DNA of 48,556 nucleotides. Source: Acidimicrobiia bacterium. Lineage in GTDB: Bacteria; Actinomycetota; Acidimicrobiia; Acidimicrobiales; AC-14. Location of the stretch: positions 1-48,556 of the forward strand of contig JAHFUR010000030.1 in the NCBI GenBank assembly GCA_023264995.1, given 5' to 3'. Below the pieces are notes generated by a model, which saw only the letters and a list, made by a program, of their open reading frames with translations, was not told the origin of the DNA and did not search any database. Shown here piece after piece: positions 2,085-33,760 of this stretch. Each line of letters begins with the position of its first letter. The stretch's first letter is position 1. Made by a program: the position numbers and the translations under genes.

Positions 2085-2636
2085 ATGGCACCCGTGGCGG
2101 CACTGGCGCGGGTGGAGCGGGGGCTCGCGACCGTCGGCGCGTTGGCGTTGGCCGTGCTCCTCCTGACCGGGGTGTGGCTCACCCGCTACTACCGGCCCTC
2201 CCCCGGCCTGGGCGAGCTCGCCCACCGTTACCCGGGGATTGCCATCGCGATCGGCGTCCACCGGGCAGCCGCCGGCACCCTCCTCCTGGCCGCGGGCGTG
2301 CTGCTCGGCGTCCGCGTGGCAACGGCAGTACGACGAGCCGCACCGGCGGCCCTGGCCGTGCTGGCCACCGTCGCCCTGGTCGTGACCGGCCGGCGCCTGG
2401 CATGGGACGCCCTCGCGCTGTGGGCGGTCACGGTCAATTCGGACGTCAGCGGCATGCTGTTCGCCGCCTTCGACCCCAGGGTCCGCTTCGTGCTGCGGGC
2501 CGGCACCGGGGAGATCAGCCCGGCGACATTCCGGCTGGGGCTGGGTGCGCACACGCTGGCCCTACCCGCGGTGCTGGCCGTCGCGCTGTGGTGGGCCTAC
2601 CGAGCCCGGGAGAGCCCGACCGCCCCCGGCACGTAG
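2085..2636 (+). CDS. small cytochrome b-like membrane protein
   Basis: This 183-residue integral membrane protein has about four hydrophobic segments (residues 15-33, 52-76, 86-102 and 155-172). The pattern TGVWLTRYYRPS after the first helix, a histidine at the start of the second helix (H59) and HxxxLP at the start of the last (H156) resemble the N-terminal domain of cytochrome b/b6. The second histidine expected about 14 residues later in each heme helix is missing, so two full b-heme sites look unlikely. The ATG at 2085 begins directly before the first helix; longer starts would run into tyrS. It diverges from tyrS, and its last 40 bases overlap the end of mpg. Redox partner and function are unknown. 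Confidence 0.6.
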   Translation: MAPVAALARVERGLATVGALALAVLLLTGVWLTRYYRPSPGLGELAHRYPGIAIAIGVHRAAAGTLLLAAGVLLGVRVATAVRRAAPAALAVLATVALVVTGRRLAWDALALWAVTVNSDVSGMLFAAFDPRVRFVLRAGTGEISPATFRLGLGAHTLALPAVLAVALWWAYRARESPTAPGT

Positions 2637-3178
2637 AACCGCCACGGCACCTCCGCCGCCACCGACAGCCCGATCCGGCCGCTCACGCCGGCTGGCGCCG
2701 GCGGCGCGACACCGTCGTCGACCACCTCGACACCCCGGTCGCCGGTCGCCAGGTCGGCCCCGTCGAAGGCCCGGTCCAACCCGAGGGCCTGGCACAGCTT
2801 CCCCGGCCCGCTGCAGAGGTCCCGGTCGGTGCGGGCCGCCCGGCCCCGGGCCCGGCGCATCTCGTCCAGGCCCGACAGTGCGGTCAGCCCCCTGAGGAGG
2901 ACGGCCGACGCCTCCCCGTCAGGGCCGCAGACGACGTTGGCGCAGAAGTGCATACCGTAGGTGAAGTACACGTAGAGGTGGCCCGGCGGGCCGAACATGG
3001 TGGCGTTGCGAGCCGTGCGGCCCCGGAACGCGTGGCTGGCCGGGTCGGCGGCGCCGGCGTAGGCCTCCACCTCCACGATCCTCCCCGCCCGGCCGGCCCG
3101 CACGAGGACCTTGTTCAACAGGAGCGGCGCCAGCTCCCGGCTGTCGACGGCATAGAACGAGCGGGCCAGCCGGTTCAG
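2597..3178 (-). CDS. mpg: 3-methyladenine DNA glycosylase (AAG/MPG family)
   Basis: This protein of about 193 residues removes alkylated purines such as 3-methyladenine in base excision repair. Family hallmarks are IVEVEAYAG with the catalytic glutamate, SHAFRGRTARNATMFG, the YVYFTYGMH strand, and GPGKLCQALG. The conserved N-terminus (ARSFYAVDSRELAPLLL) lies upstream of the first ATG/GTG/TTG codon, a TTG at 3118. The only in-frame start that keeps it is a CTG at 3178, which overlaps the stop of the previous gene as CTGA; a second CTG lies at 3169. Initiation is therefore probably at CTG by translational coupling. The 3' end overlaps the opposing membrane-protein gene by 40 bases. Confidence 0.88.
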   Translation of the reverse strand: MNRLARSFYAVDSRELAPLLLNKVLVRAGRAGRIVEVEAYAGAADPASHAFRGRTARNATMFGPPGHLYVYFTYGMHFCANVVCGPDGEASAVLLRGLTALSGLDEMRRARGRAARTDRDLCSGPGKLCQALGLDRAFDGADLATGDRGVEVVDDGVAPPAPAGVSGRIGLSVAAEVPWRFYVPGAVGLSRAR

Positions 3179-3924
3179 CGGTTCGAGACCCGGACGTTCC
3201 CGCCGCCGGACATCGCGGTGATGGCCCGGTTCCCGCCCGGGTTCTGCTCGACGTCGACCTTCACGTTCCCGCTCTTCGTCGTGGCGTCAACCCGGTAACC
3301 GCCGGCAACGGCCGGGAGGGCCACGGCGATGTCGCCGGCGCCCGAGTTCAGGCCGAGGCGGCCGGGCGGCTCTTCCAGCGACAGGCGGATGCGGCCGGCG
3401 CCGGTCGTGGCGTCAAGGAAGCCGGCGGCCAGGTCGACGCCGTCGACATTGCCGCCCGATGTCGTGACCCGAGCCGGGCCGTGGGTGTGGTCGAGGCGCA
3501 CGCTGCCCGAGGTCGTGGCCACCTCGACCATGCCGGCGATGTCGGCGACGGTGACCGCACCCCGCCCGGTGCGGATCTTGACGGCCACGCCGGCGGGCAC
3601 CGCCACCCGGTAGTCGACGGCACACCCGAAGGTGATGACCCGCGGGCACTCGGCGTGGATGCGCAGCACGCCGTCAGCCACCGTCTCCTCGGCCACCGGC
3701 ACGCCCCGCAGGTAGCGGCGGGTGCGTTCGACGGTGACGGCGTCGGCGGGGCCGGCCACCACCGCGACCCGGCCGACCTCCACGTCGACCTCGACCCGGC
3801 GGACCGGCCCGGGAGGCACGATCGTCGCCCGGTCCTCCTCGGGCGCGAAGGTCGACAGGCCGACCACGACCACCGCGGCCGTGCCCACCAGGGCGATGAG
3901 CATGGCCAGGAGCCGGCGGGTCAT
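3175..3924 (-). CDS. DUF4097-type envelope-anchored protein
   Basis: This 249-residue protein starts with a signal-anchor (MTRRLLAMLIALVGTAAVVV) followed by a domain rich in short repeated strands of the type VATTSGSVRL, VTTSGGNVDG, ATTGAGRIRL and NSGAGDIAVAL. That is the pattern of DUF4097/DUF2807 beta-helix proteins, which are often envelope-associated and of unsettled function. The ATG overlaps the argH stop as ATGA, and the stop overlaps the CTG start proposed for mpg, so it seems to be a late gene of the arginine transcript. No catalytic residues are recognisable. The fold call is from the repeat pattern; the function is unknown. Confidence 0.7.
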   Translation of the reverse strand: MTRRLLAMLIALVGTAAVVVVGLSTFAPEEDRATIVPPGPVRRVEVDVEVGRVAVVAGPADAVTVERTRRYLRGVPVAEETVADGVLRIHAECPRVITFGCAVDYRVAVPAGVAVKIRTGRGAVTVADIAGMVEVATTSGSVRLDHTHGPARVTTSGGNVDGVDLAAGFLDATTGAGRIRLSLEEPPGRLGLNSGAGDIAVALPAVAGGYRVDATTKSGNVKVDVEQNPGGNRAITAMSGGGNVRVSNR

Positions 3925-19039: not shown

Positions 19040-19633
19040 TCAGGTGGCGGGTGGCGTCTGGGGTTCTGGTTGCGTTGCGGGTTCGTGGCCGCCGGCCTTG
19101 GCCGCAGCCCGGGCTCGCCGGTCGGGTGCGAGCACCATCACCATGTTCCGCCCGTCGAGCTTGGGTGCGGCCTCCACCTTGGCCAGGGGGAGCTGCTCGG
19201 CGATGCGGTCGAGAATGCGCTTCCCCAATTCAGGGTGGGCCACCTCCCGGCCTCGGAACATGATCGTGATCTTGACCTTGTGCCCCTCGTCGATGAACTC
19301 GCCGACCTTGCGGGTCTTCGTCTCGAAGTCGCCCCCACCGATCTTCGGTCGGTACTTCATCTCCTTGATCGAGCTGGTGGCAGCCTTCTTCCGGGACTCC
19401 TTGTCCCGTTGTGCGGCCTCGTACTTCCACTTGCCGTAGTTGAGAATGCGGCACACCGGTGGTTCAGCGAGAGGCGCAACCTCGACCAGATCGAGCTCGA
19501 GCTCCCTGGCGATGGACAGTGCCTCCGGCAGGGTCTTGATCCCCAGCTGGTTGCCGTCCGGGTCCACGAGGCGCACTTCGCGCGCCCTGATCCGGTCGTT
19601 GATCCTGAGGTCGGCGCCTTCCGGTGCGGCTAT
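19040..19633 (-). CDS. infC: translation initiation factor IF-3
   Basis: IF-3 prevents premature subunit joining and checks start-codon choice. The N-domain ([21 protein letters not shown]), linker and C-domain ([18 protein letters not shown]) are all present. The family N-terminus lies upstream of every in-frame ATG, GTG or TTG. The only codon with a proper ribosome binding site is ATA at 19633: AAGGAG sits nine bases upstream, and a stop codon (TGA) lies three codons upstream in frame. Rare AUU/AUC/AUA starts are characteristic of infC and make it self-limiting. From ATA the protein has 197 residues, with a proline- and alanine-rich tail. Confidence 0.95.
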
Positions 19634-26896: not shown

Positions 26897-27772
26897 CTAC
26901 CCCAGCCGCTCCCCCGCCAGCAGGCGGGCGCCGTTGCGCCACGCCGGCGCCGGCTGCGGCCCCTTCCCCTCGGGCTGGACCTCGACCAGTTCCAGGGCAC
27001 CGGCGCCGGCGCCGACGACCAACGACCCGGGGCTCACCTCGCCCGGCGCCAGGTCGCCCGGCGCCAGGTCGCCCGGCGCCAGCCGGGCCCGCAGCACCCG
27101 GAGCCGGCGGCCCCGGAAGGTCGTCCACGCGTGGCCGAGGCGGACGACCCGGTGCAGCTCCACGGCGGGTCGCGACCAGTCCAGGGCGTACTCGGCGGGG
27201 TCGATCTTGGACGCGTAGGTCGGCTCGCCGGCCTGGGCCACCGGCTCCGGCAACCCGGTGGCCAGGTGGTCGACGAGCATCCGCGTGCCGATGCCCACCA
27301 GTGCCGACCGCAGCTCGTCCAGCGTCTCGTCCGGGCCGATGGCCCGCTCCTGCACCGCGTAGACCGGGCCGGTGTCGAGGCCCTCCTCCAGCGCCATCAG
27401 GCACACGCCGGTGACCGCGTCGCCGGCCAGGATGGCCCGCTCCACCGGCGCCGCCCCCCGCCACCGCGGCAGCAGCGAGAAATGGAGGTTCACCATGGGC
27501 AGCACGGCCAGGACGTGGGGCCTGATCAGCCGGCCGTAGGCCACCACCACCCCCAGCTCGGCGCCGGCGGTGAGCAGGTCGTCGACCCGGTCGGTGATGG
27601 GCAGGCCCAGCTCGACCGCGGCGGCCTTCACCGGGCTGGGAACCAGGGCGCCCCCGCGGCCCCGCCTGCGGTCGGGGTTGGACACGACCAGGACCACGTC
27701 GTGGCCGGCCTCGACCAGGGCACGCAGGGGCGGGACGGCGACCTCGGGCGTCCCGAGATAGGCGAGGCGCAG
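26897..27772 (-). CDS. fmt: methionyl-tRNA formyltransferase
   Basis: Fmt (291 residues) formylates initiator Met-tRNA; the neighbouring def removes the formyl group later. The N-domain shows RLAYLGTPEVAVPPL, the catalytic region NLHFSLLPRWRGAAPVERAI and GVCLMALEEGLDTGPV. The C-terminal OB-type domain follows. The start best matching the family is CTG 27772, seven bases after GGTGAGG and two bases past the def stop; the nearest ATG/GTG/TTG option upstream would add about 16 unrelated residues. A 15-base tandem repeat lies in the C-domain. Confidence 0.93.
   Translation of the reverse strand: MRLAYLGTPEVAVPPLRALVEAGHDVVLVVSNPDRRRGRGGALVPSPVKAAAVELGLPITDRVDDLLTAGAELGVVVAYGRLIRPHVLAVLPMVNLHFSLLPRWRGAAPVERAILAGDAVTGVCLMALEEGLDTGPVYAVQERAIGPDETLDELRSALVGIGTRMLVDHLATGLPEPVAQAGEPTYASKIDPAEYALDWSRPAVELHRVVRLGHAWTTFRGRRLRVLRARLAPGDLAPGDLAPGEVSPGSLVVGAGAGALELVEVQPEGKGPQPAPAWRNGARLLAGERLG
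27041..27082 (-). repeat. 15-base tandem repeat within fmt
   Basis: GCCCGGCGCCAGGTC (plus strand) occurs twice exactly (27041-27055, 27056-27070), and a third copy begins (27071-27082). In the protein this gives LAPGD repeated in the C-terminal domain at about residues 230-245. The exact copies imply a recent in-frame expansion in a surface loop. Confidence 0.85.
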
Positions 27773-27774
27773 AG

Positions 27775-28305
27775 CTACCTCACCGGCTCCCGGTCGTCGC
27801 CGGAATCCGCATCGGACAGGCCCATGGCCCGCCGGCGCAGGGCCCGCATGGCGTCCTTGTGCTGGCGGCGGTCGAGGTGCGACAGGAGCAGGCGGCCGTC
27901 GAGATGGTCGACCTCGTGCTGGAGCATCCGGGCCATCAGCTCGCTGCCCTGGATCGTCAGGGGCTGCCCGTCGAGGTCGCGCCCATCGACCCGCACCTCG
28001 GCGAAGCGCACGATCGGCCAGGCCAGGTCGGGCACCGACAGGCAGCCTTCGGTGTATTCCCATTCGCCGCTGTGGCCGGACAGCACCGGGTTGACGATGA
28101 CGCCGGGCCCGTCGCCGATGTCGTAGACGAACATCCGCTTCTGGACGCCCACCTGGTTGGCGGCCAGGCCGACCCCGGGGGCGTCGTACATGGTCTCGAG
28201 CATGTCGTCGGCCAGCCGGCGCAGTGTGACGTCGAACTCGGTGACCTCGGCGCACGGGAGGCGCAGGACGGGGTCGCCGAACGTGCGGATGGGGTACACG
28301 GCCAT
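27775..28305 (-). CDS. def: peptide deformylase
   Basis: This 176-residue metallo-enzyme removes the N-formyl group from new proteins. The three diagnostic motifs are present: GVGLAANQVG, EGCLSVP (metal-binding cysteine) and QHEVDHLDG (two metal histidines and the catalytic glutamate). ATG 28305 is preceded by TACTCT at six bases, suggesting a leaderless start. The C-terminal tail is rich in charged residues. Confidence 0.97.
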   Translation of the reverse strand: MAVYPIRTFGDPVLRLPCAEVTEFDVTLRRLADDMLETMYDAPGVGLAANQVGVQKRMFVYDIGDGPGVIVNPVLSGHSGEWEYTEGCLSVPDLAWPIVRFAEVRVDGRDLDGQPLTIQGSELMARMLQHEVDHLDGRLLLSHLDRRQHKDAMRALRRRAMGLSDADSGDDREPVR

Positions 28306-31261: not shown

Positions 31262-31265
<4 letters not shown>

Positions 31266-32527
31266 GTGCCTCCCCCTGTGGTGGGCGGATTTGCCGTGCC
31301 CGCAGCCAATCCTTGCGCAGAAAGCAGCCCGGCCACCAGACCGAGCACGATCGACGCCAGCCGGCGCTTACTGGTACGCGCCACCTCGGTCCAGTTCCCG
31401 GCGGCGTCGAGCACCGACGCGGCGTTGGTGTCGTGGCCGAACCCGGCCCCCGGGGCAGTGAGGTCGTTGGCCACGATCAGGTCGAGGTGCTTCTCCTTCA
31501 GCTTCCGTTGCGCGCCCTCCCGGAGGTCGGCGGTCTCCGCCGCGAAACCGACCAGCACCTGCCCGGGGTGCCGGCGCCGGCCCAGCTCGGCCAGGATGTC
31601 CACCGTCGGCTCGAGGACGACCTCCGGCGGGCCGCCGGCCTTGTGCACCTTGTGCTCGGCGACGGTGGCGGGCCGGAAGTCGGCAACGGCTGCGGCCATC
31701 ACCACGACGTCGGCCGACGCGGCGCGGCGGAGCACCTCGACCTCCATCTCGGCAGCCGTCGCGACGGCCACGACCTCGACGCCCGCCGGCGGCGGGCGGT
31801 CGGCGGCCGTCACCAGGGTCACGGTGGCGCCTCGGGTCGCGGCCTCCACGGCGATGGCCTCGCCCTGTTTGCCCGACGAGTGGTTGCCCAGGAACCGCAC
31901 GGGGTCGAGCGGCTCGCGCGTGCCGCCGCCGGTGACCAGCACGTGGCGCCCGGCCAGGTCCTTGGCGGTCAGCGCCCGCTCGGTGGCGAAGAGGATGTCC
32001 TCGACGCCCGCCAGGCGGCCGGCGCCCTCGTCGCCCCCCGCCAGCCGGCCGACAACCGGCCCGACCACGACCACGCCTCGCCGACGGAGCGTGGCCACGT
32101 TGTCCACGGTTGCCGGGTGCTCCCACATCTCGGTGTGCATGGCCGGGCACACGATGACCGGCGCCCGGGTGGCGAGGAGCGTCGCCGTGAGCAGGTCGTC
32201 GGCGATCCCCGCCGCGTACTTGGCCAGCAGGGTGGCCGTGGCCGGGACGACGACAACCACGTCGGCCCGGCGGCCGAGCGAGGTGTGCGGGACCGGGTCG
32301 GTGTCGGCCCACAGCGAGGCGTGGACGGGCTCCGACGCCAGCGCTGACAGGGTGGCCGGCCCGAGGAAGCGGGCGGCGCCGGCGGTCATGACCGGCGCGA
32401 CGTGGCAACCGGCGTCGACCAGCCGGCGGCACACGTCGACCGCCTTGTAGGCGGCGATGCTGCCGCACACGCCGAGGACGACCTGCCGGCGGGGCCGGTC
32501 CGCACCCGGTACCCCAGGCGGGCTCAG
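31262..32527 (-). CDS. coaBC: phosphopantothenoylcysteine synthetase/decarboxylase
   Basis: This 421-residue fusion performs two steps of coenzyme A synthesis. The N-terminal flavin decarboxylase (CoaC) shows [34 protein letters not shown] and PAMHTEMW. The C-terminal CTP-dependent synthetase (CoaB) shows [26 protein letters not shown]. The first ATG/GTG/TTG codon (GTG 32470) would cut off the first beta strand (QVVLGVCGS). A CTG at 32527, overlapping the rpoZ stop as CTGA, restores a complete N-terminus and is preferred. Confidence 0.93.
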
Positions 32528-32804: not shown

Positions 32805-33356
32805 TTACTGGCGGCGGGATCCCAGGATAGCAGCGACCTCCTCGATGGCCCGGCCAAGGTCGTCGTTCACCACCACGTGGTCAGCCAGTGCCCGCCCCGC
32901 CCGTTCCTCCTCGGGCGCCGCCGCCAGCCGCCGGGCAATGAGGTCCTCCCGGTCGCCCCGGCGGCGCAGGCGCTCCTCCTGGGCCTCTCGGGACGGCGGC
33001 TCGACGAAGACGACCACCGCGCCGGGATGGCGGGCCCGCACCTGGGCCGCGCCCTGCACGTCGATCTCGAGGAGGACGTCGTCGCCCTCGGGCGGGTCGG
33101 GCCACGGCGTCCCGTAGCGCTGGCCGAAGACGTCGGCCCATTCCAAGAACCCGCCGGCGGCCGCGTGAGCGTCGAAGGTGGGCCGGTCGACGAACACGTA
33201 CGCGTCGGCGGGCTCCCCATCGCGGCGGGGCCGGGTCGTCCAGGAGCGGCTGAGCCAGAGGCCGGGGATCTGCCGGCGGAGCGCGGTGGCGATCGACCCC
33301 TTGCCAGCACCCGAAGGGCCGGCGATGACGAAGATCTGCCCGCGCTGGCTGCTCAG
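32805..33356 (-). CDS. gmk: guanylate kinase
   Basis: GMP kinase of 183 residues. The P-loop [12 protein letters not shown], the GMP-binding [13 protein letters not shown] and [30 protein letters not shown] are intact only if translation begins upstream of GTG 33197. The frame is open back to CTG 33356, giving the start [20 protein letters not shown], which fits the family. CTG is thus the probable start, ten bases past the mihF stop; no strong ribosome binding site is visible. Confidence 0.93.
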
Positions 33357-33366
33357 CGGTACGCCG

Positions 33367-33690
33367 CTACGAGTCGGCGGGGAACGCCTTCAGCAGCGAC
33401 TCGCGCTGCTGGGCACCCAGGCCCCGGACCCGCCGGGCCTCGCTGATGCCGATCTGCTCCATCATCCGCCGGGCCCGGACCTTGCCGACGCCAGGCAACG
33501 ACTCCAGGACGGTGACCACCTTCATCTTGCCGACGACCTCGTCACGCTCGGCCTGCTCGAGCAGTTCTTTCAAGGTGGTTGAGCCCATCTTGAGCTTTTC
33601 TTTCAGCTCTGCCCTCTGGCGGCGGGCAGCAGCAGCCTTGGCGAGCGCTGCCGAGCGCTCGTCGGGTGTGAGCGCGGGCGGCAGCGGCAT
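33367..33690 (-). CDS. mihF: actinobacterial integration host factor
   Basis: This 107-residue nucleoid-associated protein matches mIHF: MPLPPALTPDERSAALAKAAAARRQRAELKEKL, then KVVTVLESLPGVGKVRARRMMEQIGISEARRVRGLG with a helix-two-turn-helix DNA-binding core. It is restricted to actinobacteria and supports that assignment. ATG 33690 is preferred over GTG 33699. Between it and pyrF (33691-33760) is a CACGCC-TCACG-GGCGTG hairpin. Confidence 0.95.
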   Translation of the reverse strand: MPLPPALTPDERSAALAKAAAARRQRAELKEKLKMGSTTLKELLEQAERDEVVGKMKVVTVLESLPGVGKVRARRMMEQIGISEARRVRGLGAQQRESLLKAFPADS

Positions 33691-33760
33691 GCCGCGCACG
33701 ATAGCGCACGCCTCACGGGCGTGGCTCAGGCCCGACCGGCCATGCCGCGCCCCGGTTCGC

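Follow-up and report, generated by a model that had tools for sequence, protein, structure and literature searches.

Apparent CTG start codons recur in fmt and gmk of Acidimicrobiia-like bacteria

The window (the whole stretch of DNA that was analysed, 48,556 nucleotides) is one contig (C59) of a draft assembly of an Acidimicrobiia bacterium, 3,815,911 bases (~3.8 Mb) in 81 contigs, labelled G000 below. Five genes on its minus strand, fmt, gmk, coaBC, mpg and infC, appear to begin at codons other than ATG, GTG or TTG, the codons on which start prediction relies (PMC5472188). For the first four, an earlier note on this DNA had proposed a CTG start with no standard codon in the right place, and reading of the DNA together with profile alignments bears out both points. 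The features are as follows, each coding region being read from the non-standard codon.

2597..3178, minus strand: mpg (DNA-3-methyladenine glycosylase), coding region from CTG, 193 aa; NF002003, E 8e-76, above cut-off
3175..3178, minus strand: CTGA, putative mpg start CTG (3178-3176) overlapping the TGA of the gene at 3175-3924
19040..19633, minus strand: infC (IF3), coding region from ATA; TIGR00168, E 9e-60, above cut-off
19631..19633, minus strand: ATA, probable start codon of infC; no ATG, GTG or TTG before the RINDRIR block
26897..27772, minus strand: fmt (methionyl-tRNA formyltransferase), coding region from CTG, 291 aa; TIGR00460, E 8e-51
27770..27772, minus strand: CTG, putative start codon of fmt, at TIGR00460 profile position 1
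27778..27784, minus strand: GGTGAGG, Shine-Dalgarno-like, with 5 nt between it and the fmt CTG
31262..32527, minus strand: coaBC, coding region from CTG, 421 aa; TIGR00521, E 5e-114, above cut-off
32524..32527, minus strand: CTGA, putative coaBC start CTG (32527-32525) overlapping the TGA stop of rpoZ
32805..33356, minus strand: gmk (guanylate kinase), coding region from CTG, 183 aa; TIGR03263, E 3e-45
33354..33356, minus strand: CTG, putative start codon of gmk, the sole NTG among the 14 codons preceding the core at 20 of 30 loci
33367..33699, minus strand: mihF-like gene upstream of gmk, its TAG stop 10 nt before the gmk CTG

Translation from CTG yields the family N-terminus for each of fmt, gmk, coaBC and mpg, and every one of the four codons lies within about 10 residues of profile position 1. 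That of fmt is exactly there, position 2 of TIGR00460 being the residue directly after the CTG; the protein scores 173 bits, under the curated cut-off of 201.5, while the Pfam families Formyl_trans_N and Formyl_trans_C are both above cut-off. The stop codon of def (TAG, 27777-27775) stands upstream of the fmt CTG with a 2-nt gap, the next downstream standard start is at +25 codons, and the nearest upstream one is a GTG 97 codons back, inside def. The GGTGAGG that the note had described at proper spacing is indeed found at 27784-27778. Its duplex energy with a generic anti-Shine-Dalgarno sequence (-8.9) beats that of every internal CTG of the gene, and 34% of base shuffles score equally well.

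In gmk, position 1 of TIGR03263 falls five residues after the CTG, and the score of 154 bits is just below the cut-off of 160.45, with Pfam Guanylate_kin above cut-off. The earlier claim that a standard start would cost this protein its P-loop holds: the next one is at +53, beyond GPSGAGKG, and upstream there is none between the CTG and an in-frame stop 12 codons away. The gene at 33367..33699 we take to be mihF-like, a family name not obtained from a profile search. For coaBC, position 3 of TIGR00521 lies twelve residues after the CTG and the first standard codon is a GTG at 32470 (+19), within the conserved core; for mpg, position 6 of NF002003 lies two residues after the CTG and no standard start occurs between the upstream stop (36-37 codons back) and a TTG at +20. 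In both genes the CTG shares a CTGA with the preceding stop, as had been claimed, and the genome pattern to which this was likened is also present, lone stop-start overlaps being dominated by GTGA (36) and ATGA (30) over TTGA (4) and CTGA (4).

The list of unusual starts drawn up earlier stands for its four CTG genes but missed infC. Here AAGGAG occurs at 19648-19643, nine bases before the ATA, an in-frame TGA lies at 19642-19640, and the ATA is the only plausible start that we can read in the window. It recurs near the same place in five of six relatives compared, the sixth having ATC and ACG, and the IF3 protein aligns over nearly its whole length with a solved IF3.

The start of fmt was followed by searching the Fmt protein against 60 genomes (own included), of which 59 match, and reading the 30 best-scoring loci; gmk was treated likewise (60 genomes, 57 matching, 30 best read), and because the loci read are the best-scoring ones, the fractions for both genes lean to near relatives. 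At the fmt start column CTG stands in 14 of the 30, ATG in 4 and GTG in 3. The CTG is at the exact aligned position in 11 (G000, G001, G002, G003, G005, G006, G008, G009, G018, G019 and G038), both congeners carrying it there, and one codon earlier in three (G023, G037 and G046). Other leucine codons (CTC, CTT, CTA, TTA) were found at this position in 0 of the 30 loci; CTG makes up just over half of the leucine codons for which frequencies were tabulated, so that a freely varying leucine position would not look like this. Comparison with orthologues, which the earlier note had put forward as a check, gives ATG or GTG at one of the two places of the CTG in 7 of 30 loci and 2-14 codons upstream in 7 more, and the start is ambiguous in two (G027 and G004). 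At the G004 locus (L056) an in-frame TAG lies four codons back; from there to the conserved core no NTG occurs, and the start position is occupied by ACG.

These proteins might instead start at standard codons elsewhere, either far upstream, as extensions overlapping the previous gene, or downstream, as truncated but working products. Some frames are open far upstream, that of the window fmt reaching back to its GTG in def, and the presence of conserved blocks is by itself no proof of translation. Against this, none of the 14 CTG-bearing fmt loci of the order has an ATG, GTG or TTG within 60 codons upstream or before an in-frame stop, and in three of them (G002, G009 and G037) such a stop lies only 6-15 codons before the CTG. 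Downstream, the 14 loci have their next standard start between +10 and +47, which is beyond the LGTP/LGSP motif, and use of downstream starts would delete the LGTP motif of fmt as well as the P-loop of gmk. Orthologues also carry ATG or GTG at the very same codon, and we regard starts elsewhere as unlikely.

The putative CTG starts of fmt are accompanied by strong Shine-Dalgarno pairing, calculated for bases -20 to -4 against the generic anti-Shine-Dalgarno sequence because a search for bacterial 16S rRNA (RF00177) found no match in the 81 contigs (the genome is estimated to be 98% complete). Within the order the mean duplex energy is -6.9 at 14 CTG starts vs -2.2 at 14 standard starts (p 9e-6), and outside it -8.6 at 5 CTG starts vs -5.7 at 23 standard starts (p 0.04), these p-values being too small because the rows are related. 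Internal CTG codons of the fmt genes average -3.9 (319 codons), and each of the 19 CTG starts pairs more strongly than does the median internal CTG of the gene concerned. Upstream DNA that is rich in G gains through its composition, and only 2 of the 19 sites reach the 5% level against shuffles of their own bases; the effect on this measure is modest, so part of it is G-richness. A Shine-Dalgarno motif learned from confident starts of the genome was too weak to help.

A phylum-wide sample (80 genomes drawn, 79 matching, 28 best new loci read) gave a CTG in five further fmt loci, G060, G076, G104, G128 and G135, the first four forming one family of another class; in two of these five cases outside the order, G060 (+3) and G135 (-9), a usable GTG lies near the CTG. 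On an Fmt tree of 42 rows (the 30 order-level loci and 12 of the 28 phylum-wide ones) the start label needs 10 changes, of which starred branches force at least five; its clustering is only mild, with 21 of 500 shuffles as low. To judge from these alignments, the apparent CTG start of fmt is persistent but labile.

In gmk, the 14 codons before the core (counted from the conserved I of IFVIAGP) hold CTG as the only NTG in 20 of the 30 loci, a standard codon in eight and no NTG in two (G041 and G057). In 16 of the 20 CTG-only loci the codon overlaps the TGA of mihF by exactly 4 nt (-4) as CTGA, and GTGA occurs at the same overlap in two further loci. The congener candidates are a CTG 120 nt after the stop in G002 and a TTG 10 nt after it in G001. 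No Shine-Dalgarno excess was found at the gmk CTGA sites (p 0.70 vs internal CTG), in contrast to the CTG sites of fmt, and thus the codon occurs in two settings.

The exact junction of the two frames at CTGA, seen in 16 of 30 loci, could also be read as a -1 frameshift or stop-hopping site producing an mIHF-Gmk fusion rather than as a start. However, the same overlap reads GTGA in two loci, the mihF stop is followed by ATG, GTG or TTG in others, and in the window the mihF stop is a TAG located 10 nt upstream of the gmk CTG, and we consider a fusion very improbable.

How far the CTG starts extend to other genes was examined by searching the window genes in neighbourhoods (13.5-20 kb) of 20 relatives, keeping homologues that begin no more than 25 residues from the query start and do not lie at an edge, and scoring a gene as having no standard start when ATG, GTG and TTG are all missing from a stretch that opens 30 codons upstream (or at the in-frame stop) and closes 2 codons beyond the first aligned residue. 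By this rule fmt has no standard start in 9 of 17 cases (all CTG) and gmk in 11 of 20 (10 CTG), compared with 0 of 233 for 22 other genes, including coaBC, rpoZ, metK, def and carB; infC (3/3), priA (7/19), mog (2/14) and pyrD (2/19) also gave cases. At 20 named loci the counts were 5/20 for gmk (all CTG), 2/13 for fmt (both CTG), 3/3 for infC, 2/6 for ribD, 3/16 for priA, 1/13 for carA and none for other genes, and at six outgroup loci 3/6 for gmk (one with CTG), 1/5 for pyrD and 1/6 for pyrC. Because the outgroup gmk cases mostly have no CTG, the rule is not proof by itself, and it can misfire (priA, mog and pyrD; gmk, pyrD and pyrC in the outgroup). As a further CTG gene priA was dropped, its CTG positions being inconsistent among relatives. 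Within the order, CTG thus appears to concentrate in fmt and gmk; of the recurrent CTG starts described earlier, the recurrence is real, but in the compared cluster it belongs to particular genes and is not an even habit.

The other two CTG genes stand apart in this comparison. A missing standard start of coaBC was seen in 0 of 19 relatives, making its CTG private to its own genome, and homologues of mpg, argG and one more gene were not found in the neighbourhoods of the 20 relatives. For coaBC and mpg the CTG start is the best reading, given the profile alignment, the CTGA overlap and the lack of an alternative in their own genome, whereas for fmt and gmk the reading is supported by recurrence in many genomes, exchange with ATG, GTG or TTG, and Shine-Dalgarno strength or overlap. 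The original finding is right in its essentials, and for these two genes stronger than first stated. The same division applies to sequencing or assembly errors that would have turned an ATG or GTG into CTG, or frameshifts that would hide the true start. In a draft of 81 contigs conservation cannot clear the one-genome cases coaBC and mpg of such an error; for fmt and gmk it is very unlikely, the same aligned codon being present in many separate assemblies and, for fmt, in both congeners. As an account of the whole we give error only the slightest weight.

In a sample of the genome (1016 called genes in 1.15 Mb), 29 genes have a coding score that drops by more than 8 nats when their best ATG, GTG or TTG is taken as the start, our definition of a poor standard start. 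At their coding boundary CTG is found 13 times vs 4.7 expected from codon frequency, and CTC 5 times vs 4.3; relaxing the cut (66 genes) gives 22 cases of CTG vs 11.4 expected, but TAC, TTC and ATC are enriched as much. A single-genome estimate of CTG start frequency (EM over codons, with likelihood gain per codon) gave about 4% in G000 and was discarded, since GCA gained equally, a control genome (G082) gave 11.5%, and for G015, a member of the same order, the figure was 2.4% and the gain unremarkable. Such estimates being unspecific, the case rests on conservation. Eighteen of the 29 genes were run against Pfam and NCBIfam, and in this genome the CTG agrees with the alignments for three genes besides fmt, gmk and mpg, namely pth, hypF and hisN, with folC as a possible fourth on which profiles disagree about the start.

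L214:9196-9795 (contig C11), plus strand: pth (peptidyl-tRNA hydrolase), CTG candidate
L177:11352-13766, plus strand: hypF, CTG candidate
L178:6946-7806, minus strand: hisN, CTG candidate
L246:7131-8498, minus strand: folC, possible CTG candidate

In pth a single codon separates an in-frame stop from the CTG, and about 35 codons follow before an ATG, GTG or TTG is reached. Several poor-start genes matched no family, and CTG starts were rejected for an ECF sigma factor, a nitroreductase-like gene and a FIST-domain gene, to which the alignments do not fit. A nitroreductase/BluB-like frame (L173:17327-17851, plus strand) offers no usable start in the stretch from the upstream stop to the domain, and is either a broken gene or one with an unusual start.

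Several CTG-start genes in one genome would also be explained by a special initiator tRNA that reads CUG as a standard start, through either a CAG anticodon or a relaxed anticodon stem. An initiator arm pattern allowing CAT or CAG matches 47 of the 60 genomes (own included), every listed match having CAT and none CAG, and 13 genomes have no match. The GGG/CCC anticodon stem, which contains a pair that in E. coli influences how CUG is discriminated against (PMC11497404), is found in 49 of the 60 genomes and in 11 of the 14 order-level genomes with a CTG fmt (the G000 copy being a 3′ half only), where neither an M1-like C30-G40 change nor another loss of a G-C stem pair was found; of the remaining three, G005 and G019 gave no match, and G018 only a GCG...CGC arm that could be an elongator. 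The genomes with no arm match, and the own genome, among whose tRNA hits no intact initiator was found, leave this explanation some room; the CAT anticodons, the conserved stem and the standard start that is always available to the 22 other cluster genes speak against it, and it is the least probable of those considered here. In the own assembly, L223:7464-7520 (contig C42, minus strand) is the 3′ half of an initiator tRNA, from anticodon arm to CCA, joined to unrelated-looking 5′ sequence; it may be what is left of an integration site, or reflect a gap in the assembly.

We consider it probable that the ordinary initiator tRNA, with anticodon CAU, begins translation of fmt, gmk, coaBC and mpg at CUG. 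With an ordinary initiator arm CUG should be a weak start, which would be raised in one of two ways. In fmt the Shine-Dalgarno site would place the ribosome and offset the weak C-U pairing at the first codon position, whereas in coaBC and mpg, and in gmk for most of the relatives that have CTG there, the CTG and the upstream TGA have their TG in common, and a ribosome that has just terminated could restart there. Gene-specific CUG starts in these two settings, led by a Shine-Dalgarno site or by a stop-start overlap, thus seem to be real. Across an order of Acidimicrobiia-like bacteria, fmt and gmk appear either to have retained this codon or to have acquired it anew, a pattern suggesting that these two genes benefit from initiation that is low or can be adjusted.

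Each part of this arrangement has a known counterpart. CUG is reported, in a paper citing earlier work, to account for 0.024% of bacterial start codons and to give 0.86% of the AUG yield in E. coli (PMC11497404); the codon and its C-U mismatch with anticodon CAU are the same here, but of the loci read, about half for fmt and two thirds for gmk apparently start with CTG. Overlapping gene pairs of the ATGA type are translated by termination-reinitiation (PMC6728339). The 4-nt overlap is shared by coaBC and mpg in the window and by gmk in 16 of 30 loci, with the differences that the restart codon would be CUG and that the gmk sites have no Shine-Dalgarno excess; in the window, gmk and fmt are instead separated from the preceding stop by gaps of 10 and 2 nt.

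Rare starts are also known in infC, which begins with ATT in E. coli and ATC in Streptomyces and is autoregulated by IF3, and in sigR of Streptomyces, which has a GTC start and is repressed by IF3 (PMC5472188). The likeness to infC is a rare start in genes of the translation apparatus (here infC ATA and fmt CTG), although fmt is a different gene and its codon is CTG, not ATH; that to sigR is a conserved non-canonical start, missed by annotation, in a gene of actinobacteria, although codon, genes and lineage differ and the present cases are read from sequence. A non-standard codon at the conserved N-terminus is seen in fmt, gmk, coaBC and mpg (CTG) and in infC (ATA), and the codon is conserved in fmt (14/30), gmk (20/30) and infC (5/6), but not in coaBC (0/19). 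By this comparison fmt and gmk probably belong to the small class of conserved non-canonical starts; a CTG start of either gene was not found in the literature searched (open-licence papers).

In E. coli, extra IF3 is reported to lower both non-canonical initiation and re-initiation that lacks a Shine-Dalgarno site (PMC2268962), and both CTG settings could therefore answer to IF3. Control of the CTG-start genes by IF3 is plausible by this analogy, and the codon may be kept for low set expression, for tuning by IF3, or as drift tolerated in coupled genes. A more speculative proposal, which we think doubtful, is a circuit in which infC (AUA), fmt (CUG), gmk (CUGA) and perhaps pth (CUG) carry codons discriminated against by IF3 and IF2-GTP-fMet-tRNA, so that their output would follow IF3, formylated initiator and GTP. 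As core enzymes, fmt formylating the starter tRNA and gmk making GDP, the two are natural test cases for the use of poor start codons and for control by IF3 level beyond infC and sigR.

The apparent CTG habit is common to many related genomes, and ordinary gene finders easily miss such starts; annotations of fmt and gmk in these genomes are likely to be truncated, that of gmk before the P-loop.

Three of the loci, L064, L067 and L080, are titled Acidobacteriota, Bifidobacterium breve and Acidobacteria; their gmk neighbourhoods are Acidimicrobiia-like, and they are probably mislabelled MAGs.
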